A DNA stretch of 64,000 nt from Buttiauxella sp. A111. Its GTDB lineage: Bacteria > Pseudomonadota > Gammaproteobacteria > Enterobacterales > Enterobacteriaceae. The stretch is from assembly GCF_014189855.1 (NCBI RefSeq), contig NZ_BJFN01000001.1:1116001-1180000 (forward strand), in the 5' to 3' direction. Below, piece after piece: positions 1,768 through 13,470 of this stretch (its first letter is position 1; every line of letters begins with the position of its first letter). The notes below the pieces were generated by a model, which was not told the DNA's origin, did not search any database, and worked only from the letters and a program-made list of their open reading frames with translations. The position numbers and the translations under genes are program-made.

Positions 1768-1924
1768 ACTCTTCCAACGCAGTTCACTCCAGTCTATAAA
1801 ATCAATAATTTCATATAGATAATCATAAATACCAATCTCATGCAGTCCAATACTTTCCAGTGGAATCTATACACTGTTATGTATAACATTGCGTATAACT
1901 TGGTTCGATCTTTTTTCTATACAC

Positions 1925-3091
1925 ATGCTGCTATCAGACCTTCAAATCAAACGCGCTAAACCACAAGATAGACCCTACACGCTTAATGATGGCGCGGGCT
2001 TATCGCTACTCATTGATACAATTGGCGGGAAAGGATGGCGTTTCCGTTATCGCTTCGCAGGCAAGCCTAAGATGATCTCGTTTGGTATCTATGGAGAAGT
2101 GTCGTTAGCAGAAGCCAGAAAAAAGCGTGATGATGCGCGTTCGATGCTAGCCAAAGGGATCAACCCGAGCGAAGCGCGGAAAGCTGACAAAATCGCGTTA
2201 CGCTTCGCCCATGACAACAACTTTGAAGCGGTGGCCAGAGAATGGCATTCATCTAAAACAACCACCTGGTCAGTTGGCTACGCTAAAGAAGTGCTTAACT
2301 GCTTAGAGAAGGATATCTTCCCATATGTTGGTCAACGTCCCATTGAGCAAATTGAACCGCTAGAACTGCTAACAGTGCTTCAGAAGATTGAGAAACGCGG
2401 AGCATTAGAACAAACCAGCAAAGTTCGCCGCCGCTGTGGAGAAGTGCTTCGTTACGCCGTTGCCACTGGGCGAGCCAAATACAATTTTGCACCGGATCTG
2501 GCCATAGCTTTAAATAAACCCACAACAAATCATTTCCCATTCCTGAGAGAAAGCGAACTCCCTGCTTTCGTTCAAGCTCTGGAAAATTACCAAGGTAGTT
2601 TAGTGACAAAGTACGCTACGCAGCTGCTAATGCTTACAGGTGTAAGAACCATCGAATTGCGCGCTGCCGAATGGGCTGAATTTGATATGGAAAATGCCCT
2701 TTGGGAGATACCGAAAGAGCGCATGAAAAAACGTCGTTCTCATTTGGTTCCACTATCTACGAAGGTAATCGAGATACTTAAAAAGCTAAAAGTGATCACT
2801 GGAACATACACACTCGTTTTCCCTGGGAGAAATGACGTAAGAAAACCAATGAGTGAGGCCAGTATTAATAAAGTTATTAAGATGCTGGGTTATCATGGAA
2901 GGCTAACAGGCCATGGTTTCAGGCATACAATGAGCACCATACTGCATGAGCATGGATTTGAGAGCGCATGGATTGAGATGCAACTTGCGCATGTCGATAA
3001 GAACTCCATAAGGGGTACTTATAATCATGCACAATATTTAGAATGTAGAAAGGAAATGATGCAATGGTACTCTAACAATTTAACTAATTAG
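1925..3091 (+). CDS. P4-type site-specific tyrosine integrase
   Basis: 388 residues from the ATG at 1925, chosen over an upstream TTG at 1889 because P4-family integrases start with a sequence like MLLSDLQIKRAKPQ. The N-terminal domain of about 100 residues (GAGLSLLID, WRFRYRFAGKPKMISFGIYGE) is the DUF4102-type arm-binding domain. The catalytic domain has Arg about 241 (TGVRTIELR), the HxxR box at about 330-333 (TGHGFRHT), His about 356 (LAHVDKN) and the nucleophilic Tyr about 366 (GTYNHAQYL). It lies beside attL and points inward. It should catalyse recombination between the element and the tRNA-Arg 3' end; excision would also need a directionality factor, for which AlpA (13243-13470) is the candidate activator. 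Confidence 0.95.
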   Translation: MLLSDLQIKRAKPQDRPYTLNDGAGLSLLIDTIGGKGWRFRYRFAGKPKMISFGIYGEVSLAEARKKRDDARSMLAKGINPSEARKADKIALRFAHDNNFEAVAREWHSSKTTTWSVGYAKEVLNCLEKDIFPYVGQRPIEQIEPLELLTVLQKIEKRGALEQTSKVRRRCGEVLRYAVATGRAKYNFAPDLAIALNKPTTNHFPFLRESELPAFVQALENYQGSLVTKYATQLLMLTGVRTIELRAAEWAEFDMENALWEIPKERMKKRRSHLVPLSTKVIEILKKLKVITGTYTLVFPGRNDVRKPMSEASINKVIKMLGYHGRLTGHGFRHTMSTILHEHGFESAWIEMQLAHVDKNSIRGTYNHAQYLECRKEMMQWYSNNLTN

Positions 3092-3117: not shown

Positions 3118-4674
3118 TTAATTTTTAACAGATTGATTACAATAAGGATGGGTTAACTGGCAGTTTTCACCGGTACCTACCCCCCCATCTCTGACTCTAG
3201 TAATGTGGTCATAAGAAATCGATTTTGCAGAGTCTAAATAGCCATCACAGATTGAACATCTGATTGATGAATAAAGAGCCGCATTAATAAAAACCTTGCT
3301 CTTTTGATCATCTGAAAATTTCTTCCCGCTGGAATTTACGTTGCCAGCAACTAATTTACCTTGCAAACCAGCTAAATTTATTAGATCACTCTCACTAACT
3401 TCATTACCTAATAGAAGTACTTTAATCAAATCATCTAAAAACTCTTTATACTTAATATCTCTCGTGCGATTGCTATTCTTTTGGATAATCATGGAAATCA
3501 ATTCTTTATCTTTTACCAAGATATTTTCCAATTGAGATCTAATTGAGGTGAATTTTTTAAAAAATTCTTTATCATTATTTTTCATCTTCTGTGCTATCAG
3601 GAATGCTGTTCCCAAAAACATTGGGCCAGTATGCCTTCCAGTTGGCCCATAGAAATAGACTGCTGGATGCAAACCTAAGCTACCATTACCATTACCTGTA
3701 ATTCTATCCGCCAGATCAATTGCATTCTTTAACGATTCAACAGTCTTTGAACCAAGTTCGTCATCATCTTGGCCATCAAGTGTCTTAGGTTGCCCTTGAT
3801 TATCTCTATTTGCTATTAGGATAAAATCAATCAATAATTGTATAGCAACTCGAACACCTCTAGCTCCACCTAAAGGTAAATCTAAAGTTTTTACTGGAGT
3901 ATTTAGATCAGGGTCAAAAAGTATAGAGTGTAATTTGTAAGCCTCTTGCTCTATTTTATCTGAATATTCTTTACTAAATGCCGACCAATAACGATGCCCT
4001 TTTCCTGCCCTAATAACTGCTCGCGCGGAAATAGACGTCGGCTTGTGCCTATTTTTAAGCAAGAGCTCTTCAACCTCATCCAGAGGAGTCCCTTGCATAT
4101 TTATATTAAAAAATGAACTTTCAGCCTTATCTGCATTTCCTTTTACCCACTGAATAGTCAAACCTCTTGTTAGAATATTAGTAATCTTATTCCTTTCTGC
4201 TGATGAAATATCCTCATCTGATAACCTTTGCTTGAAGTGAGCCCAACTACCAATACGCTCATTAATCAAGCGACGAGTTTTCTCTGCAATATTTCTTTGT
4301 TCCTTTGAAATCTCCGAACCGAAATATTTAATAGAAAGAGGACCATCACCATAATCGTCTTCAATCCAAGCTTTTAGTACGCTTAATCTATGACCACCAT
4401 CAATCACGAAAATATAGGAACTTTTCCATAGAATAACAGCTGGAATTAAATCACCTGTAACATAGCTTTCAAGCATGGAAACAACTTGATTTGGAGACCA
4501 GTGATTGGTTTCTCTCTGGAAATCAGGTTTTCTTAAAATAGCCGTAAAATCATTCAAATCCCTGACAGAAATGCTGTTGATCGTATCAAAAGTGGTTTCA
4601 TCTTCTACCTCAGTTGCAAAATCAGCACGTTTTATCATTGCATCTAAATTTACTAAAACTGCTTTGCTAGCCAT
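3118..4674 (-). CDS. DUF262/ParB-like (DGxxR) protein with C-terminal HNH nuclease motif, putative restriction factor
   Basis: 518 residues from the ATG at 4674, preceded by GGAG at ideal spacing; an ATG at 4725 would add 17 residues. The N-terminal half has the DUF262 pattern: PDFQR at about 50, the VIDGGHRL motif at about 90 (family form DGQQR) and FFNINMQGTPL at about 187. The last 46 residues hold a CxxC pair (473, 476), an Asp-His pair (489-490), Asn 504 and a final HPYCNQ, an HNH/zinc-type nuclease. DUF262 plus a C-terminal HNH-type domain is the architecture of GmrSD-type enzymes that cut modified phage DNA, although the close family here is not one I recognise. It is followed, 205 bp away on the same strand, by a PD-(D/E)xK nuclease gene upstream of it in transcription. 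Both are much richer in A+T than the flanks, pointing to transferred cargo. Confidence 0.72.
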   Translation of the reverse strand: MASKAVLVNLDAMIKRADFATEVEDETTFDTINSISVRDLNDFTAILRKPDFQRETNHWSPNQVVSMLESYVTGDLIPAVILWKSSYIFVIDGGHRLSVLKAWIEDDYGDGPLSIKYFGSEISKEQRNIAEKTRRLINERIGSWAHFKQRLSDEDISSAERNKITNILTRGLTIQWVKGNADKAESSFFNINMQGTPLDEVEELLLKNRHKPTSISARAVIRAGKGHRYWSAFSKEYSDKIEQEAYKLHSILFDPDLNTPVKTLDLPLGGARGVRVAIQLLIDFILIANRDNQGQPKTLDGQDDDELGSKTVESLKNAIDLADRITGNGNGSLGLHPAVYFYGPTGRHTGPMFLGTAFLIAQKMKNNDKEFFKKFTSIRSQLENILVKDKELISMIIQKNSNRTRDIKYKEFLDDLIKVLLLGNEVSESDLINLAGLQGKLVAGNVNSSGKKFSDDQKSKVFINAALYSSIRCSICDGYLDSAKSISYDHITRVRDGGVGTGENCQLTHPYCNQSVKN

Positions 4675-4879
4675 ACCATCTCCGTACGTGTACGCCTTTA
4701 GTTCGGCATTTTTAAAGAGTAACAAAGGTATGTACTCTTACATCGATAAAGCGAAAATGACTTTAAAATGTATTGCCTTAAACTTCGATAACTTAAGCAA
4801 AGACAAAAAGCTCTTTACTTTAATTTTACTTAATAAAATGGAGTGTGACATGCACCCACCATTTTACCTATTGATGCCA

Positions 4880-6313
4880 TTAATCGATTAGAAAATTCCA
4901 CAACTTTCTTAATGAATGAAAATTTTGATTTCCACCATCCATGTATTCTTTACATAGAACTTCAAGATCATCATCATCAATAGAAAGTATAAATCCTCTT
5001 CCATCGTTTGCAGTATCTAGGCATCGTTGCCTAAATAATTCTTTGTCACGAATTTTTCTACAAACTAATATCCCTACATTCCCCCTATTTCGAGAAAATC
5101 TGCCAGCGATTTGATCTAGTTCTGGGTTAGCCACATCAGATGTGTAATTTTTACATTCTACATAAATTTTAGGACAAGTATAATGTTGTAAAAGCCAATG
5201 AAAGAACCCATATTTAGCTTCATTAACATAAGTAATATCTATTCTTTTTCGACCTTGATGAATTTCATGTTGCTTCGTTGGGAAGCACAATGATGGGTAG
5301 AAAATTAATGAAAATAATTCCTCAATCAGATTCTCATACTCACCAGCTTGTTTAGCTCCTGTTTTAATCGACTTTAACTTGCTTAAAAGCGGTGTAGCAT
5401 CTACCTTTTCATTAATTGCTTCTAACTCATTGAATATTTCATGAGATAATGGCGCTGAAGGATTTATTTCCTTATGCTTTTTATAATCTTCGAACACATC
5501 AGGTCGTTTCAAGGTTTGATTTATGACAGAAGGCTTATCTTTCCCATATTTATCTTTCAAACTTTTTTTAGTGACGCGCCTCGTACCGTCTTTTAAGACT
5601 TCAATTAGTGATGAATTGTTTCTTAAATGCTCATCTTGCATTTCTGGCAGTAAATAATGTGTGTAGAACTCATCATATTGTAGACACAATCTATGTCTTA
5701 CTAAAACCTTAGGAACTAATATTATTTTACCAAATGTGGTCATTGGCAAAGAAACAAATTTATTATACCACTCTCCCTTGTGCGGATCCCATATGGGTCC
5801 TGAGTCAATATCAGGAGTTAAGGGTACACCATAATATTCACACATCTTTTGAGTGTATTCAATTAATGGCCCTCTTAATATATTACTTACAGCATCAGAA
5901 ATCATGTCAGTTCCAATTCCTGGTATCAATAATGCCGTATCCTCTAGATCTTTTAATAGCCCACTTGATACTGCTTTACTCTGAGTTAAAGCATTCCAAA
6001 CTGAATGTGCAGAACCAGCGCCAAAACCGTGCCCACGGGATCTCCCTGACGAATAGCCTAAATGGAATTCATTTCTTTCATTTAGTGATGCCAAAAGGCG
6101 TTGTGCTTCATTGTTTTTTCCAGTCTTAATTAACTTTAAGACTTTCTCAAAAAAACTCTGCAAATGTGCAATTAACTCATGCCCCCATATTGAATCAAGA
6201 GACTTTATGGCTCCAGGATCAAGGAAAACGGGTAAGTCAGTGTCAAGCGGTATATCAACGAAATCGAGATGTGCCTGTGTGCGATTGAGATTAAAATATT
6301 CTGAAAAGCGCAT
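4880..6313 (-). CDS. Putative PD-(D/E)xK restriction endonuclease-like protein of the satellite cargo
   Basis: 477 residues; AGGAG lies six bases before the ATG. The C-terminal domain shows the nuclease core in order: Glu-rich helix EYENLIEELF at about 325-334, Asp 359 in GRKRIDIT, and Glu 386/Lys 388 in IYVECKNY, then a helix and LVCRK. This is the Mrr/REase-fold arrangement. The N-terminal about 300 residues (from SEYFNLNRTQAHLDFVDIPLD) match no domain I know; they include a Gly-rich loop at about 88-100. It probably forms a unit with the DUF262-HNH gene downstream. The position between integrase and replication genes is where P4-type satellites keep phage-defence cargo. A function in restriction is inference; an unrelated DNA-repair role is possible. 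Confidence 0.7.
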   Translation of the reverse strand: MRFSEYFNLNRTQAHLDFVDIPLDTDLPVFLDPGAIKSLDSIWGHELIAHLQSFFEKVLKLIKTGKNNEAQRLLASLNERNEFHLGYSSGRSRGHGFGAGSAHSVWNALTQSKAVSSGLLKDLEDTALLIPGIGTDMISDAVSNILRGPLIEYTQKMCEYYGVPLTPDIDSGPIWDPHKGEWYNKFVSLPMTTFGKIILVPKVLVRHRLCLQYDEFYTHYLLPEMQDEHLRNNSSLIEVLKDGTRRVTKKSLKDKYGKDKPSVINQTLKRPDVFEDYKKHKEINPSAPLSHEIFNELEAINEKVDATPLLSKLKSIKTGAKQAGEYENLIEELFSLIFYPSLCFPTKQHEIHQGRKRIDITYVNEAKYGFFHWLLQHYTCPKIYVECKNYTSDVANPELDQIAGRFSRNRGNVGILVCRKIRDKELFRQRCLDTANDGRGFILSIDDDDLEVLCKEYMDGGNQNFHSLRKLWNFLID

Positions 6314-6931
6314 AAAGACTCCTAAAAAAATCCCTCAACATAGTGTTCAACATTAACACTATCATTTTTTTTCAAGAAAAAATTGCATATAACTCAATTT
6401 TTTGAGACTCATTTTTTTCAAAGCATTGCATGTTGCAAATATTAAATTCTTGAGCGTCCCTGAAATCTTATCTTGGGAGTGCATACCTTTGTCTCTGATT
6501 GTCCGTATTCAAGCACAGCAGCTAGGCTCAATATCATAGCCAAAAAATAAAAAGATAATTGACAAAATTGGCACTACACCGCACCCGCCTACGGGTTTCA
6601 GATCATAAAAAGTTTTCAGTTTTATTTTTCTACAAACGCTCACGCCATCCAGCGCCACTACTGGGGTTCTCGGTGTAGTGTGAAACTGAAAACATTGAAA
6701 TTACTTTCAGTATTTTTCAGTTTTGAGGCGCAGACATCATTCTGAGGAAAAATGTAACACCATGATTAATCTATTATTTATGTATTTTATGTGGCTTCGA
6801 GTTATGGGATGGGAGGAAAGGGATATTTAGCGATTGTTCGGAAACACTTTATTGAACAATCGCTTAAAGAAAAAAATCACAAACAGTTACTGAAAAATCC
6901 CCACAACAAAACTACGTCGAACTTTTTACCT
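6314..6931. other. Non-coding stretch with nested inverted repeats in the satellite
   Basis: 618 bp without a gene. CACTACACCG at 6572-6581 is inverted at 6671-6680, and GTTTTCAGTTT at 6612-6622 is inverted at 6683-6693, giving a nested foldback of about 120 bp. Further TTTCAGT copies follow at about 6701-6722. The part nearest 6314 must hold the promoter of the nuclease gene. The repeats could be a second replication site (P4 needs an ori and a separate crr) or a transcript end; I cannot decide from sequence. Confidence 0.45.
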
Positions 6932-7270
6932 TCACCCGCCCCGCAGGTTTTGAGCTGAACAAGCCTTAACTGCCAATTTATCGTTTTGCTGTAACTTTTT
7001 GTCGTCACTCTGCGCCCTGCTGAGCATATCAATCATATCCTGACGCCGTTCCGGTGGTATGGACTCAATCACCCCCTTAAGCATATGCCCGTGTGTAATA
7101 GCACTCGGACTTAGCGTATGTGAAAACGTCACGTTCATTACAAAGGTGTGTCCACATTCAACATTGCTGCATGCACAATAAACATCAGAGATTTGGGCAT
7201 GTTTGCGATTGGTTTTCTTAATCATGGCAACTTCACTGCACTCCGGGCAATAAATACGCATTACTCGCAT
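6932..7270 (-). CDS. Ogr/Delta-family zinc-finger transcriptional activator
   Basis: 112 residues; AAGGAG precedes the ATG at 7270 by eight bases. Residues 8-50 have the family pattern: CPEC, then KKTNRK, then CACSNVECGHTF, giving four cysteines for one zinc, then VTFSHTLSPS. P2 Ogr (72 residues) and P4 Delta (a fused double unit) use this domain to activate late promoters through the RNA polymerase alpha subunit. One zinc unit is present, with a longer C-terminal tail rich in charged residues. In a satellite this protein would activate helper late genes or its own. It is the last gene of the leftward replication segment, just beyond the iterons. Confidence 0.85.
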   Translation of the reverse strand: MRVMRIYCPECSEVAMIKKTNRKHAQISDVYCACSNVECGHTFVMNVTFSHTLSPSAITHGHMLKGVIESIPPERRQDMIDMLSRAQSDDKKLQQNDKLAVKACSAQNLRGG

Positions 7271-7576: not shown

Positions 7577-10264
7577 TTATTCCACTTCAGAGCTACCCAG
7601 TACGCAGGTATTGAACTGATACACACGTTTAAGGCCTATTTCTGGTAGGCGAAGGCTTGTCTGGGTTCGCCCATCCTTACCCGGCTCCAGCCATCCCGCG
7701 CTAACGCATAATCTGGCCACCTTACGCGCATCGAATCCTTTACAGATTTCCTTCCAGCCTGAAGGCAAGACATAGAAAGTTGTGACTGCTTCGGTGTCTT
7801 TATTTCCCAGCTCGACCTTACGAAAGCCCATCATGGCCACTGGTCGATGGTCGTTGTTGTGCCAGTCTGCAAACCGACTGAACTGGTTGCGGGTCATAAA
7901 ATCACATACCTGCTCCAGTGCAGCTCGATCTTCCTGATTGGCTGAATGGCCACGATCTGCCATCCATGCAGCCAAGCATCTCTGCGCAGCCTGAAAGGCT
8001 TCCCCTTCCTTCCAACCAGTAATACCGGCACGGGTGGCTAGCTCACCGGCCATTGCAACAAGGGCAAAACGAGTCACCGCGCGGCCAACCTGGTTTCCTG
8101 CATCTGCGGGTGTCATGCGTCGTGTAAAATCCTTCAGCATGGCTTTGGCTTCACCGGTAATACCTGTTAAGTCCTGGGTAAGATGATGCAACCAGTCCCT
8201 AAACGGTGCACCGTGCTGCTGGGTTACAGCTTGCTCCAGATGCTCCGACAATGCTTTACCACCGCTAAACCCATGCAGCTCTTCAAACACACCGTATTTC
8301 CCTGAATCACTGGGTATCTGGATCATCCTGACTTCAACACCGGCGTACGTTCGTTCCCCAGCATTCGCTGCATGCTCAACAAGTGACAACTCACCGGTAG
8401 AGAGGAACAGCAGGTTCCAGCGGTTAGTTTCGCGTACTGAACCATCAGTACGTGCCCTAGCTTTTCCTTGGCCATTTGCGAGCATATAAGCAATATTCCC
8501 CGCTTCGCGCCCATCGACTTCTCTTATTTCATCCAGCATTAACGTGGCGTCGTTTCGACGGCTGGCCGTTCCCTCCAGCGCGTTGCCGGTTGCCCGCCAT
8601 GTATGCCAGAAATCGGTTCCACCACAGACTGAAGCCGAAACTTTCATTGTGGTGGTCTTGCCGTCTGTGGATTCACCTTTCAGGTGATAGCCACCACCGC
8701 CGACACCCACCATGCGCAGTAATGGTGCAGCAAAAGCAAGGCTGACGGCGAACGCCACACGGGCATTCCCGACACAATAGCGGCTTATCTGCTGCCGCCA
8801 TTCTTCCGTTGTCCCCATAACGCGAAAATCCCGCCCCTGGACACTGGAAGTTTGAAGGATCACCGACTCAGCACCTTTACCAATCACCTCATCTTGTAGA
8901 ACGTATACACCACCGTGCCAACCCGTTTTATTTACACAGGTAACTTTACGTTCGGGCTTGCAAAGGGATATGTATTCCATCAGATGCGCTCGTGCCATGC
9001 CGTTGATGTTGATATAAGACAGGCCATTTACCAGTAACACGCGGCGCAGCTCCTCGCCGCTTCCACCCAGCATTTCCATCGGCATCGCCCATTTACGGCT
9101 GTTACCGTAGGTATCTTCCCATTCCAACAAGCGACCATAATTACTACCATCGGCATCGCAGGTAATCGCCGTAACTCGTAACGGGCTGCAAATTTTGATA
9201 TTGCGGATTTCAGTATCGCCATCCGACTTATTCACCAGTTTGTCGTACCAGAGATATTCTTGGGTCAACCTGAACCCCTGCGGCAGTCGTGTCCTACCTT
9301 TTCCGTGAAGTGTCATTTCCTCGCGGAAGGCTTCACGGGTACGCTCCTGACCATGCTCCTGCCGGTAATCATCCCAATCGGCTTTATGCCGTGTAGGCGG
9401 CAGGGTTACCCATCCATCAATTGCTTTGGCTGCTTTCTCAGCCCATACACGCCCGGTGTTCTCTTTCCCATCAGTCAGATCGTTATCGCCAGCGATAATG
9501 ATCCGTGCGTCTGGCCATCGCTGACGCATTTGCTGTGCCACCTTTACAAGATTAGTGGCGGCAACTGCGGCTACAACAAGGCATTCGTTTACGGCTGCTA
9601 CAGTTAGGCCAGTGGCGTAACCCTCAGTAATCACAACCTGATCCGCAGCTTGTTGTTCCGTACCCGCTACATGAATATATGCACCTGAAAGCTGACTCCC
9701 CGGCAGAAGGCTTTTATCTCCCAACGGGCTGATAAGCTGACCGCCAGTAATATTCCCGGCAATATCATTCAAGGGGAGCAAAACCGCGCCCGGAGGGAAA
9801 GACGTTCCGGCCACCTCAAGGGATTGTGTTAACAGCGGAAGAATATGGCCGTGAAGCCCCCGCTGCGTCAGATAATCACATTCACCGCCGACACATTTTT
9901 CCCTCAGCCTTGAATAACGTTGTGCACCTTTATCTGCGGTGAGAGCTTCTTTCCTGGCTGGCTTAATTGAAGCAGATGCCACTGCCGGTAGAGAGAGAAC
10001 ATCCGCTACCAGAGAAGAAACCTGTTTTATGTCTTTACCAGAAACCAAACGCACCAAATCAAGACCATCTCCGTTACCACACTGGTTACAGAACCATGTT
10101 CCGCGCCCTTCTTTATCATCGAGACGAAAACGATCTTTGCCACCACAAGATGGGCATGGCCCGTGATTTTTTCCAGTTGGTACTTTGATACCCAGCGCAG
10201 GAAGAATTTGCGGCCAGCGGCCTCGTGCTGCTTCACAAACAGCGGAAACGGTTTTCAGTGTCAT
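7577..10264 (-). CDS. P4 alpha-like DNA primase-helicase (zinc finger, TOPRIM, DUF927 ATPase)
   Basis: 895 residues. An N-terminal zinc finger has CxxC at 37/40 and CxxC at 59/62. A TOPRIM primase domain follows at about 200-290 (VVITEGYATG and IIIAGDNDLTDGKENTGR). The C-terminal half is a DUF927-type superfamily-3-like ATPase with Walker A GESTDGKTT and Walker B ATLMLDEIRE. It is expected to recognise the origin, unwind it and prime replication, giving the satellite replication independent of the host DnaB and primase. Length and domain order match the large primases of P4-like elements rather than the shorter P4 alpha (777). It is the final gene of the icd-like/10364/primase transcription unit. 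Confidence 0.9.
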   Translation of the reverse strand: MTLKTVSAVCEAARGRWPQILPALGIKVPTGKNHGPCPSCGGKDRFRLDDKEGRGTWFCNQCGNGDGLDLVRLVSGKDIKQVSSLVADVLSLPAVASASIKPARKEALTADKGAQRYSRLREKCVGGECDYLTQRGLHGHILPLLTQSLEVAGTSFPPGAVLLPLNDIAGNITGGQLISPLGDKSLLPGSQLSGAYIHVAGTEQQAADQVVITEGYATGLTVAAVNECLVVAAVAATNLVKVAQQMRQRWPDARIIIAGDNDLTDGKENTGRVWAEKAAKAIDGWVTLPPTRHKADWDDYRQEHGQERTREAFREEMTLHGKGRTRLPQGFRLTQEYLWYDKLVNKSDGDTEIRNIKICSPLRVTAITCDADGSNYGRLLEWEDTYGNSRKWAMPMEMLGGSGEELRRVLLVNGLSYININGMARAHLMEYISLCKPERKVTCVNKTGWHGGVYVLQDEVIGKGAESVILQTSSVQGRDFRVMGTTEEWRQQISRYCVGNARVAFAVSLAFAAPLLRMVGVGGGGYHLKGESTDGKTTTMKVSASVCGGTDFWHTWRATGNALEGTASRRNDATLMLDEIREVDGREAGNIAYMLANGQGKARARTDGSVRETNRWNLLFLSTGELSLVEHAANAGERTYAGVEVRMIQIPSDSGKYGVFEELHGFSGGKALSEHLEQAVTQQHGAPFRDWLHHLTQDLTGITGEAKAMLKDFTRRMTPADAGNQVGRAVTRFALVAMAGELATRAGITGWKEGEAFQAAQRCLAAWMADRGHSANQEDRAALEQVCDFMTRNQFSRFADWHNNDHRPVAMMGFRKVELGNKDTEAVTTFYVLPSGWKEICKGFDARKVARLCVSAGWLEPGKDGRTQTSLRLPEIGLKRVYQFNTCVLGSSEVE

Positions 10265-10363: not shown

Positions 10364-10609
10364 TTAGTGCTGTTCATCATGCACCTCTTCTGCCATTCGG
10401 TTGCTTTGCTTCACCACACATTCCATCTGCTCAGCAAGGCAGCTGAAAAGTGCCGCTACCCCTTCACCGGAAACAGTCCTGTTTCCGTCGTAACAAGATC
10501 CGTAAAGTAAATCAGCGACAAAAGCAGTGGCTATGGACACTCGCAGCATGCGCTCTTCGCCTTCTTCACTCAGCGTCATAGGAATGTCAGTACGATGAAC
10601 ATTAGTCAT
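10364..10609 (-). CDS. Small conserved P4-element protein (81 aa), function unknown
   Basis: The ATG at 10609 overlaps the stop of the Icd-like gene (ATGA), so translation is coupled. No signal peptide or membrane segment; the sequence is mildly acidic with a C-terminal stretch CVVKQSNRMAEEV. A small protein at this place, between Icd-like and primase genes, is usual in P4-like elements, but I know of no assigned role. Confidence 0.75.
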   Translation of the reverse strand: MTNVHRTDIPMTLSEEGEERMLRVSIATAFVADLLYGSCYDGNRTVSGEGVAALFSCLAEQMECVVKQSNRMAEEVHDEQH

Positions 10610-10809
10610 GCCGTTACCTCCCTGTTTGCGTGAACGGGCAAACGTCCCGCAAAGGAAAGTACATATTCCGGAGCCAGCATAATACGAGCAGAGTGTTCAT
10701 CAGATGCAGTAATACGAACGCGACAAGGCTTCGCTTGATAATCAGCGCGCCGAATAGCCAGAAACAGGAAAGAATACTGAGGGTGTTGAAATACAGGGGT
10801 AGCGGCCAT
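10606..10809 (-). CDS. Host cell division inhibitor Icd-like protein
   Basis: 67 residues from the ATG at 10809 (MAATPVFQHPQYSF). The core FLFLAIRRADYQAKPCRVR, then LAPEYVLSFAGRLPV, is the Icd-like family signature of P4 elements. An open frame extends upstream to 11199 through the leader, and long versions are often annotated, but that part overlaps the repeats of the RNA-immunity leader, so the short start is preferred. In P4 the icd product blocks septation when over-expressed. It is the first gene of the leftward operon and is expected to be silenced by premature termination in the integrated state. Confidence 0.75.
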   Translation of the reverse strand: MAATPVFQHPQYSFLFLAIRRADYQAKPCRVRITASDEHSARIMLAPEYVLSFAGRLPVHANREVTA

Positions 10810-10819
10810 TATGGCAACC

Positions 10820-11091
10820 TCCGTTAGATAGCGGGTAACGCTACCACCGGGGTTCCTACGCCCAAAACTGGTGGTAGCCCAAACGGGGGTAGGAATACCG
10901 GCTCTAACGGATACCGGCCAGCCCGAGAGCTGCCCCGCCTGGACTACCATAATTTTGATGATGTGGCGCAAAAAGCATATAGCCAACACTGAGCACCACA
11001 CCATGAAATACAGGTGCGTCAAAGCTGCGACATAAAAAAACACGCCTGGCGCGTGTTGTGTCGCCGTTAGATAACTCGGGTTCCTACGCCC
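10820..11091 (-). promoter_or_regulatory. P4-type RNA-immunity leader (seqA, seqB, seqC repeats)
   Basis: On the reverse strand two copies of a GGCGTAGGAACCC...TATCTAACGG motif occur, at 11064-11091 (seqA-like) and 10820-10863 (seqC-like). Between them, at 10885-10911, lies their complement (seqB-like: TCCGTTAG and ATTCCTACCC). In P4 the short CI RNA containing seqB pairs with seqA or seqC of the nascent leader and causes termination before the replication genes. The arrangement here is the same, with an intrinsic terminator directly after seqA. Confidence 0.7.
11034..11057 (-). terminator. Intrinsic terminator within the immunity leader
   Basis: On the reverse strand the stem AACACGC/GCGTGTT with a five-base loop is followed by seven T. 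It lies immediately downstream of the seqA-like repeat, where P4-type elements terminate the lysogenic transcript. Confidence 0.7.
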
Positions 11092-11255
11092 GGCAACCGA
11101 TTTTGCGGCTGCGGGAAAACTATAGCCCGTGAGATCCTGGTGACGCAAGAAATTTATAACCGAAATAATAATATTGAGTATCTGTTTAGTCCCTGGCATG
11201 CTGAATGCTCCTTAACGTAAGAATTGCGTTAATGGTTTCCTGTGGTAGTACTCAA

Positions 11256-11294: not shown

Positions 11295-12299
11295 TTAGCC
11301 AGCCAAGGTAATGGCACTCTCATCTACAGCGGCATAAAGTTCTGCATCCCCCAACGCATAGCCTTCATTACGCAGATAGGAATGAGTGTATTCACAATTA
11401 TCCTCATCAAATTCTGCGCGGAAAAAGCGAGTATTAGCTTGGGTATATATATGCAGGTTATTCAGAGTTGTAACGGCAAGACGTTTACCCGGCATAAATG
11501 GCGGTATAAATGCAAAGCGTCCAGCTACAGAACTGGTAGCCATCTGCGCTGCATTAATGTCAGCCGGACGATCTGCTGCATTGAAAATTTTCAGACGTTG
11601 CTGCGCAGCCAGTTCGGCACCAACCAGTACAACGAGGCGCGGATCTTCCCTGAAAGGTTCGGCAATGACATTTGTGATTAAATGATTTGCAAGCAGGTCG
11701 ATATTTTTCCACTCACCAGACTCACCCAATGAAACCGGATCAGTAATAATCTGTTTTCCGTCCTGAAAATCCTTTGCCAATGCGTGCCAGCCAATGTTCA
11801 CATCCTCACCCTTCTTATTAGCTTCAGGGTTGGTGGTATCAGCAATCGACGATCCATTAAAGCCAATGCGTAGCATATCCAGTGCGTAAGCCTGATTAAA
11901 AAAGGCATTCATTTCTTCATCAAAACTACCTGCTTTGCCGAGATTATAAATCTCAGCCATTTCGGCATAGCTGATCCTAGCGCTGGTATCCGTCTCCGAA
12001 AGCCAGAATTCAGTACCGTTAATCGCAACCTTTTTACGGAAACGGCCACCTTCAACCCTGCCGGTATGTAATTCACTGGCTCCAATATTAATTGCGTGAC
12101 CAGAACAAGCATTAATATCACGGAGAGTGATATTCCCCATCATCCAACCGGACTCTAACAAAGCAGCTCTTAGGGTATTTTCTTTCGTTGCTGTTAGAGA
12201 AAATGAACGACTTCCACCATTATTATCGCTAACACCATTGGTAAATTTTTTATGATAGCGTTCAGCTGCATCTGGTTTTGATTTTTGAAAAGCATACAT
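11295..12299 (-). CDS. P2 gpN-type major capsid protein homologue of the satellite
   Basis: 334 residues, close to the length of P2 gpN (357). Conserved stretches align by eye: ALDMLRIGFNGSS (P2: SLDFIMAGFNG), GWHALAKDF, NLIEPW-like NVIAEPFREDPRLVVLVG, and LNNLHIYTQANTRFF near the C-terminus. gpN forms the capsid shell of P2 and of P4 particles. Classical P4 has no capsid gene and reshapes the helper shell with Sid, so a satellite-encoded gpN is notable: it could co-assemble with or replace helper capsid protein. The 289-residue gene lies 21 bp upstream on the same strand and is likely co-transcribed. Confidence 0.82.
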   Translation of the reverse strand: MYAFQKSKPDAAERYHKKFTNGVSDNNGGSRSFSLTATKENTLRAALLESGWMMGNITLRDINACSGHAINIGASELHTGRVEGGRFRKKVAINGTEFWLSETDTSARISYAEMAEIYNLGKAGSFDEEMNAFFNQAYALDMLRIGFNGSSIADTTNPEANKKGEDVNIGWHALAKDFQDGKQIITDPVSLGESGEWKNIDLLANHLITNVIAEPFREDPRLVVLVGAELAAQQRLKIFNAADRPADINAAQMATSSVAGRFAFIPPFMPGKRLAVTTLNNLHIYTQANTRFFRAEFDEDNCEYTHSYLRNEGYALGDAELYAAVDESAITLAG

Positions 12300-12320
12300 G
12301 TATATATTTCGCCTGTTATT

Positions 12321-13190
12321 TTAATGAGTGAATAACTTGTTCTTTCTTTTAGAAAACGTCTTTTGATTATATATGTACTCTACATAATCCTTGTCACAAA
12401 CAATGGCTCGCAGGAGCAAGTTATCAGATTGATAATATTCCCTATAAGCTAAAGTACGACTTACACCGCCATTATCAAGATCATATTTATCTATCGGAAA
12501 TGTGCATAGCTGTATGATTTTATTCACTGCCATTGCAAGTTTATCTAGCGCTCCAGTAATAAACTGCACTGCATTTATTATTTCTGGCACACGGCAAGTA
12601 TTCATAAATCCCGTAGGAATTACTGGCATTCGAGTGAATGTATTTAATATTTTCCAGTTGATACCTTCACCGATATGCCTCACACCCTCTGCGAGTAGGC
12701 CTGGTAAAGCTTTAAAATGATTTAACCTTGTTTGTTGTTCGATCTGTCGTGTCAAAGCCGACTGATAACGGCGCTCAACATCATCACGATCCACACGGCT
12801 TTGCCGACTCCCTTTAGCCACAGAAATGCTAGTGGGACTACTGGTGAGCCGTTTCAACATTCCCTCTGTATCGCTCACTTCCCGCTGACGAAAGGCATAC
12901 TCCTCTTCCTCACGGCGGCATAAAATGGCACAGCGTGACAGCAAAATATTTATTTCTTCTACCGTTGCTTCACAAGCAGGGATTGTATGCCCTGTAAGAG
13001 CAAAAAGTTTTTCACCTTCTGGGCGAAGTTTATTAAGAAGATGAATCTCAATAATACGAGCTACACATGCTGCGTCGCTGCTTAAATTGCCAAATGGGGT
13101 AATTGTGTATCGTTGAATAATTTCAACGTTATTATTTTTCAATGGTGGAAGAGTGCAGGAAACCACTCCCGCAATAGCGTGATTACTCAT
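12321..13190 (-). CDS. Unknown satellite protein upstream of the capsid gene (possible capsid-assembly factor)
   Basis: 289 residues, no family recognised. The middle, about residues 85-160, is rich in Glu/Arg/Gln with a long predicted helix (REEEEYAFRQREVSDTEGML and RRYQSALTRQIEQQTRLN), suggesting a coiled coil. The ends are more globular. It is followed by the gpN-type capsid gene after 21 bp and preceded by AlpA. A helical partner gene beside a capsid gene in a satellite suggests scaffolding or size determination, as Sid does in P4, but there is no sequence match to Sid that I can see. Function therefore unknown. Confidence 0.65.
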   Translation of the reverse strand: MSNHAIAGVVSCTLPPLKNNNVEIIQRYTITPFGNLSSDAACVARIIEIHLLNKLRPEGEKLFALTGHTIPACEATVEEINILLSRCAILCRREEEEYAFRQREVSDTEGMLKRLTSSPTSISVAKGSRQSRVDRDDVERRYQSALTRQIEQQTRLNHFKALPGLLAEGVRHIGEGINWKILNTFTRMPVIPTGFMNTCRVPEIINAVQFITGALDKLAMAVNKIIQLCTFPIDKYDLDNGGVSRTLAYREYYQSDNLLLRAIVCDKDYVEYIYNQKTFSKRKNKLFTH

Positions 13191-13242: not shown

Positions 13243-13470
13243 TTAGCTATTTTCATCCCTTCTCTTCACATTTCCTTTTATCCATTGCTGCACTTCATTT
13301 TCTACCCATGCAACAGAGTTAGATCCAATTTGTACCTGAGTTGGAAACTCATTGGATTTAACCTTCATGTATATAGTGGATTTTTTTAAACCAGTTATAT
13401 TCATTACATCTGCAATGCGTATAAGTCGCATATTTTCTGGATGTGCGTTCCCCGTAGGCAATAAGCTCAT
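13243..13470 (-). CDS. AlpA-family transcriptional regulator
   Basis: 75 residues with the AlpA winged-helix pattern: MRLIRIADVMNITGLKKSTI at about 14-33, then FPTQVQIGSNSVAWVENEVQQWI. AlpA was described as an activator of the CP4-57 prophage integrase gene and excision. Here it is the first gene of the leftward capsid unit, and it faces a stretch of direct repeats near attR that could be its target. Confidence 0.88.
   Translation of the reverse strand: MSLLPTGNAHPENMRLIRIADVMNITGLKKSTIYMKVKSNEFPTQVQIGSNSVAWVENEVQQWIKGNVKRRDENS

Follow-up and report, generated by a model that had tools for sequence, protein, structure and literature searches.

A P4-like satellite in the genome of Buttiauxella sp. 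A111 (G000, 4.89 Mb) carries, between its integrase gene and a probable cos region, two adjacent genes that encode predicted nucleases of different types. The satellite lies within positions 1,116,001 to 1,180,000 of contig NZ_BJFN01000001.1, a stretch of 64,000 nucleotides referred to here as the window. Gene 1 joins a DUF262 domain to an HNH domain, and gene 2 joins an N-terminal module (N-module) to a PD-(D/E)xK nuclease domain. A sequence-only reading of this DNA had treated the two as one restriction system. Because each normally travels without the other in its relatives, they are probably two independent single-gene defence-type cargos, placed next to each other in the cos-int hotspot of a P4-like satellite with a capsid gene. 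The two genes are arranged as follows:

3118-4674, minus strand: gene 1, DUF262 plus HNH, 518 aa (Pfam, alignments, homologue boundary)
4675-4879: intergenic gap of 205 bp between gene 1 and gene 2
4880-6313, minus strand: gene 2, N-terminal module plus PD-(D/E)xK, 477 aa (PADLOC, alignments, AlphaFold2, Foldseek)

Both open reading frames (ORFs) were found at the coordinates and in the leftward orientation given by the sequence-only reading. They are AT-rich, as it had also said, with a GC content of 35.8% for gene 1 and 35.2% for gene 2 (integrase gene 44.5%, primase gene 52.3%, window 49.1%). The 205-bp gap had not been mentioned. The proposal of one system is not supported by comparison with other genomes. 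Across the sets searched, the window is the sole case in which the two genes are adjacent, and the co-occurrence test, which had been set beforehand as a refuting one, fails. Each gene has relatives without the other.

Gene 1 was represented by 26 distinct proteins including that of the window (27 sequence groups, one of which is the window again), and 21 of these have at least 2 kb upstream, the side on which gene 2 lies in the window. A gene-2 relative is near gene 1 in two of the 26, the window and a Luteimonas locus (L049), and is adjacent in the window only. Similarly, a gene-1 relative occurs at one of the 69 genome-contig loci with gene-2 relatives, which is again L049; here gene 1 has 36% identity and stands about 4 kb from gene 2, with other frames between them and an integrase near. 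On viral contigs, the other gene was found with none of the 16 gene-2 rows and none of the 29 gene-1 rows (8 + 21, contigs partly shared). A DNA search matched one gene in 57 of 5426 E. coli genomes, at one place each and with at most 45% query coverage, and thus no E. coli genome has both genes at that sensitivity. Four E. coli gene-2 cases (H1-H4) are located in three P4-like satellites and one region with remnants of a type III secretion system, with no gene 1 within 8 kb. Among the 392 genomes of the family sample, 4 carry gene 1 and 13 carry gene 2, with the two adjacent only in G000; in one further genome (G099), a gene-1 homologue and a partial match to the gene-2 nuclease domain lie on separate contigs. 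The class sample contains the gene-1 profile in 18 of 369 genomes (two full length) and the N-module in 3, with G000 alone in both, and DNA of the pair was found in one of the 12 genomes of the genus sample, G000. A two-gene system was rejected on co-occurrence in these E. coli, family, class, genus, genome-contig, and viral sets.

The satellite backbone points the same way. Its relatives that reach past gene 2 (L035 and the near-copies L001 and L138) have gene 2 and lack gene 1; another, L140, ends within gene 2. Because backbone relatives carry gene 2 without gene 1, gene 1 looks like a later addition to the satellite.

Both genes turn up in the same types of surroundings. A gene-1 relative is found in the Peduoviridae (P2-like) phage KL3, beside a set of EcoRII methylase, Vsr, and EcoRII-C and without gene 2, and others adjoin P2-type portal and terminase genes (L118 by Pfam, L130 by protein cluster only), in L118 likewise with no gene 2. 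Plasmids with gene 1 make up 57 of 72,556 records, 48 of which show a coverage of at least 80%; 51 are from Acinetobacter, with about 25% identity among the matches listed. Relatives of gene 2 are found in P4-like satellites and beside P2-type portal, terminase, scaffold, and capsid genes (L141 by Pfam; L142 and L144 by cluster). The filamentous phage Pf8 has a gene-1 relative (L007:8523-10061) that is annotated as 'putative repressor C protein' and is actually a DUF262-HNH protein, again with no gene 2. Gene 2 was searched for on the gene-1 plasmid pENT01 and not found; the protein encoded upstream of gene 1 there (503 aa) was checked as a candidate and is not gene 2. Additionally, two helix-turn-helix (HTH) regulators with 80% identity were seen in different E. 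coli, one beside a gene-2 relative (L004:9479-9943) and one near a gene-1 relative (L005:6273-6737), with a recombinase gene near both. This shared regulator was rejected as a hint of linkage, as it is not beside the window pair and the arrangement differs.

From its domains and motifs, gene 1 is best understood as a restriction enzyme of the GmrSD-like (type IV-like) kind, encoded by a single gene and with DGxHR as a motif variant. Its ORF opens at TTG 4725, most relatives begin at or near ORF residue 18, and ATG 4674 is preceded by GGAG at a 5-nt spacing. Based on these homologue starts and the GGAG before ATG 4674, gene 1 is most likely 3118-4674, and its residues are numbered in the resulting 518-aa protein. 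Pfam places GmrSD_N (DUF262) at residues 47-210 (7.8e-12, 46.2 bits versus a cut-off of 33.2) and HNH at residues 473-516 (5.3e-5, 23.7 bits versus a cut-off of 21.4), which bears out the domain assignments of the sequence-only reading. In the 518-aa numbering, DGGHR falls at 92-96 and the HNH histidine is H490, as that reading had given them. The motifs are QR (53-54), DGGHR (92-96), F188xxxN192, DH (489-490), and N504. In a 17-row alignment, Q53, R54, D92, G93, H95, R96, F188, and N192 are invariant. Of the 17 aligned proteins, window included, 16 have a GmrSD_N match and 14 an HNH match (E ≤0.01); the HNH region is missing in rows L123 (contig end) and L134.

QR, DGQQR, and FxxxN are the motifs named for GmrSD proteins (PMC12137116); DGQQR is reported to be conserved in nearly every such protein, with exceptions (PMC12373910). 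Type IV enzymes that join DUF262 and a nuclease in one gene are already on record: PMC12373910 reports twelve single-gene systems with HNH or DUF1524, drawn from the 20 most frequent GmrSD clusters of enterobacteria. Gene 1 resembles the single-gene ParB_n(DUF262)-nuclease forms of GmrSD in its DUF262 domain, QR, FxxxN, C-terminal HNH, and one-gene organization (PMC12373910). However, those forms have DGQQR, whereas gene 1 has DGGHR, and DGxHR is invariant in the 17-row alignment. By sequence, gene 1 is best placed as a member of the known GmrSD kind with a motif variant. The AlphaFold2 model of gene 1 (pLDDT 80.6, pTM 0.70) gave BrxU, a type IV enzyme of the GmrSD family, as the top of 155 Foldseek matches (E 1.6e-3, prob 0.96), albeit with a low TM-score, followed by ParB and Noc structures. 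Unlike gene 1 with its HNH, BrxU has a nuclease of the DUF1524 type, as do typical members of its family (PMC12137116), and a scan of ten satellite proteins revealed no BREX genes. Against PDB chain sequences, gene 1 has weak matches, the best of which are HNH proteins (E 0.0053), and among defence profiles it weakly matches NsnA (1.1e-6, residues 61-135 of the ORF).

The DUF262 domain of gene 1 would bind nucleotide and sense phage DNA that is non-self and probably modified. Turnover of the nucleotide would license the C-terminal HNH to cut that DNA. Nucleotide-regulated sensing and cutting by DUF262 proteins is described for GmrSD, BrxU, and SspE (PMC12137116). Discrimination of modified DNA or of self from non-self, which the sequence-only reading had proposed for the pair, is reasonable to infer for gene 1 on its own. 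The accompanying statement that no methylase is present agrees with a Pfam scan of ten satellite proteins, among which none was found, the rest of the window lying outside the scan.

Gene 2 is, by sequence comparison, a solo, partner-free branch beside the PADLOC candidate PDC-M36A. Its C-terminal Mrr-like PD-(D/E)xK domain carries D359, E386, and K388, which are present as first described and conserved in 31 of 32 homologues with at least 40% identity. Pfam detects Mrr_cat below threshold (17.7 versus 21 bits), with PDDEXK_3 also weak among the family matches, and no DUF262. The PADLOC model PDC-M36A matches residues 2-459 (E 3.7e-53, 179 bits). The AlphaFold2 model (pLDDT 88.3, pTM 0.88) retrieves MspJI (E 8.8e-3), FokI, VC1899, and BspD6I as the best Foldseek matches in the PDB. 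In BFVD there is one match at 8e-4, below which stand phage 'restriction endonuclease' models. Thus, the C-terminal nuclease is like those of Mrr/MspJI-type PD-(D/E)xK endonucleases, given the weak Mrr_cat and PDDEXK_3 matches and MspJI as first Foldseek match, whereas the N-module (residues ~1-300) has no confident counterpart among these enzymes and no confident PDB match in Foldseek with the whole model as query. A sequence search of PDB chains found no relatives of gene 2, only two chance matches to T-cell receptor chains.

The family was compared using 86 homologues of at least 400 aa, with shorter ones left out. Three proteins (L098, a partial match, L112, and L113) fit no branch and were dropped from the branch counts, and L016, the window's own place, was counted once, so that branch A has 31 rows and not 32. 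The labels A and C required the D/E/K residues, which were recounted by identity band alone: all three occur in 31 of the 32 distinct homologues at 40% identity or more (L098, partial, being the exception), in none of eight at 34-40%, and in 43 of the 45 with less than 26% (all but L112 and L113). Branch A comprises 31 distinct rows including the window, with 42-100% identity and D359/E386/K388 kept. Branch B comprises eight rows with 35-39% identity, all of which have lost D, E, and K, and branch C comprises 43 rows with about 21-25% identity and D/E/K kept. M36B-type genes accompany 43/43 branch-C rows, and two small proteins adjoining the branch-C member L106 match both PADLOC M36B models (2.3e-57 and 2.8e-52). 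In contrast, M36B was found beside 0/31 branch-A rows (26 of the 31 with at least 2 kb downstream). For this reason gene 2 was rejected as a member of a PDC-M36 system, although its M36A match is full-length. PDC-M36 consists of A plus B; gene 2 shares the D/E/K residues with M36A but has 21-25% identity to that branch and lacks the M36B partner. A branch-C member scores 832 bits with the PDC-M36A model, versus 179 for gene 2. A search of one literature collection for 'PDC-M36' and 'DUF8370' returned no papers, and no published test of the candidate was found.

In the tree, B and C are each split from all other rows by a branch with full support. This does not hold for A, since three of its rows branch deeper than the other 28, which group together with B (98/91). 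With a midpoint root, this topology suggests that branch B lost the active site from an A-type ancestor. Conservation follows the same division within the protein, in a tally that skips positions of intermediate conservation. Of 33 positions conserved across all three branches, 28 fall within residues 1-300, and they include Q13, D17, D26, E79, E124, D136, S139, D140, N144, T154, K202, and R206. Another 15 positions are conserved in A and C and nearly absent from B, all at or beyond residue 319 and including D359, E386, and K388. The N-terminal module is therefore constrained without a working nuclease, because the conserved positions in 1-300 persist in branch B. These dead-nuclease relatives with a conserved N-module (L104, L105, L146, and L148-L152) include several in P4-like satellites in the psu-int slot. 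The dead branch lies between Psu/Ogr_Delta and integrase in L148 (three neighbours by Pfam) and L146 (integrase by Pfam), and the same slot is seen in L147 and L149-L152 by protein cluster only.

The N-module is found in several settings: alone, with an Mrr-type nuclease with or without M36B, with another PD-(D/E)xK nuclease, and with a D/E/K-less nuclease remnant in P4-like satellites. Proteins of 286-304 aa with the N-module alone are present on Pseudarthrobacter, Acinetobacter, Arthrobacter, and Rhodococcus plasmids (L157, L158, L160, and L162), and in L114 and L168 it is joined to what appears by eye to be another PD-(D/E)xK type. Conversely, a Paenibacillus plasmid protein (L161) has the gene-2 nuclease domain behind a different N-terminus. 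In two further proteins, a gene 2-type nuclease domain follows an HNH domain (L110:7216-8382 and L111:7665-8861). Gene 2 would act as a one-protein sensor-effector: its N-module would recognise a ligand or DNA state specific to infection and thereby switch on the C-terminal Mrr-type nuclease. More tentatively, the N-module could be a mobile sensor front end, exchangeable between proteins across bacteria, and the functional core of the protein; satellites would then employ both active and dead forms in one slot. Such a module would sense a ligand or phage, perhaps with enzymatic activity.

The surrounding element is a P4-like satellite, as the sequence-only reading had stated; a P4-type integrase, primase, Ogr/Delta, and AlpA were found with Pfam. 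Its remaining features are as follows:

1690-1764: tRNA-Arg(CCT), adjoined by the integrase; the satellite begins downstream
1889-3091, plus strand: P4-type tyrosine integrase, left border of the cargo slot
6561-6724: conserved non-coding block, probable cos region (DNA matches to satellites and phages)
6932-7270, minus strand: Ogr/Delta-like late regulator, right border of the slot (Pfam Ogr_Delta, 2.6e-15)
7577-10264, minus strand: replication primase-helicase (DUF927, Toprim; Pfam)
10606-11199, minus strand: Ash/Icd-like protein, satellite backbone
11295-12299, minus strand: P2-family major capsid (PF05125, 1.5e-66)
12321-13190, minus strand: 289-aa protein with no family assigned, satellite backbone
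13243-13470, minus strand: AlpA, satellite backbone

Close DNA matches to the satellite are mostly from Enterobacteriaceae. The backbone gene order is repeated in E. coli TK3887, at tRNA-Thr, and backbone DNA is present in L035, L138, and L140. The 6561-6724 block is common to the backbone relatives L001, L035 (= L018), L138, and L140 and also matches 11 phage records. The matching segment forms the extreme end of the linear record in ESSI-2 and ESSI2_ev015 (four records), the last 148 bp in ESSI-2; it lies less than 200 bases from the record end in ESSI2_ev129 and ~1 kb from it in ESSI2_ev040 and Yersinia phage 324. One short unannotated record among the 11 was not usable for judging end position. 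Because the matches fall at or near the ends of P2-like phage genomes, the block is probably the cos region of the satellite. Its presence in the Seongnamvirus ESSI-2 and related phages is a hint of an ESSI-2-type helper.

The slot between the integrase gene and this block fits the P4-like defence hotspot. A psu/cos-int defence hotspot is described for E. coli P4-like satellites (PMC9122126), in agreement with the earlier placement of the cargo between int and the replication genes, and the cargo systems of P4 and P2 hotspots occupy the same slot beside cos and int (PMC9122126). Neither DUF262 nor HNH appears in the main text of that paper. A Pfam scan of the satellite proteins found no psu at the other border of the slot, where Ogr/Delta is located instead. 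The satellite also has its own P2-family major capsid gene and the neighbouring gene for the 289-aa protein (11295-13190), and may be of a capsid-carrying type of P4-like satellite; the term 'major capsid' is absent from the main text of a P4 survey (PMC8628076). The intergenic gap contains one weak terminator-like site (4857-4841, minus strand). A scan of the region predicted 13 promoters versus 16.6 expected and 4 terminators versus 2.4 expected, and is uninformative because these counts are near chance level. Among other reports, CMoRE is a GIY-YIG enzyme (PMC12923530), DUF262 is not named in the main text of the DefensePredictor paper (PMC13092281), and DUF262 and HNH are mentioned in PMC11341870 just as neighbours of another system.

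Several observations weigh against two independent defence cargos. The two genes have their strand, low GC, and slot in common, and both are also present in one integrase island in L049, so that they may co-operate at these two places. The scans for relatives use short peptide patterns and are incomplete, and less than 2 kb was available upstream in 5/26 gene-1 proteins and downstream in 5/31 gene-2 loci. Plasmid matches comprise 57 gene-1 and 36 gene-2 records; pairing on plasmids was searched on one of them, pENT01, with one Pantoea plasmid seen by annotation. As for a defence function, neither gene has a full-length match to a validated defence family, and neither model has a PDB match at E 1e-3 in Foldseek. 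The BrxU match to gene 1 is weak, with a TM-score of just 0.21-0.25, and DGxHR replaces DGQQR in gene 1, where DG..R is kept and QQ becomes xH.

Independent genes need not act on virulent phages. They could serve the element itself, in competition between satellite and helper, between satellites, or with plasmids, which we consider unlikely. Among the relatives of the two genes whose surroundings were read, many reside in mobile elements (KL3, Pf8, P4-like satellites, P2-type portal/terminase neighbourhoods, and plasmids), and the hotspot has been proposed to act in inter-viral competition (PMC9122126). However, some relatives are in chromosomal islands, and anti-phage action is compatible with this account. 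Still less probable is that one or both genes are non-functional or encode homing-type nucleases without a defence role. HNH and Mrr-like domains are also found in homing and repair enzymes, and a branch of the gene-2 family has lost its catalytic residues, but both frames in the window are intact, the catalytic residues are conserved in relatives, and the genes lie in a known defence slot and not inside a conserved gene. Finally, a single two-component restriction system, in which the DUF262 protein senses and the PD-(D/E)xK protein assists, is very improbable: although the genes are adjacent on one strand with equally low GC, co-reside in the L049 island, and have a precedent in described two-gene GmrSD systems (GrwAB; ECOR17 GmrS1/GmrSD2), the second gene there is also a DUF262 protein while gene 2 has no such Pfam match, the adjacent case is single and interrupted by the 205-bp gap, and satellite-backbone relatives have gene 2 without gene 1.

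Separate cargos remove an apparent two-gene defence system and leave two single-gene candidates. Gene 1 would bring into the GmrSD arms race a subfamily with DGxHR, whose members occur on plasmids as well as in a P2-like and a filamentous Pf phage, and gene 2 would be a partner-free version of the candidate system PDC-M36. Because a dead-nuclease sister branch in P4-like satellites keeps the N-module, this module and not the nuclease appears to be the constant part of the gene-2 family. The unplaced, reusable N-module is therefore the most interesting part of the locus and worth following.

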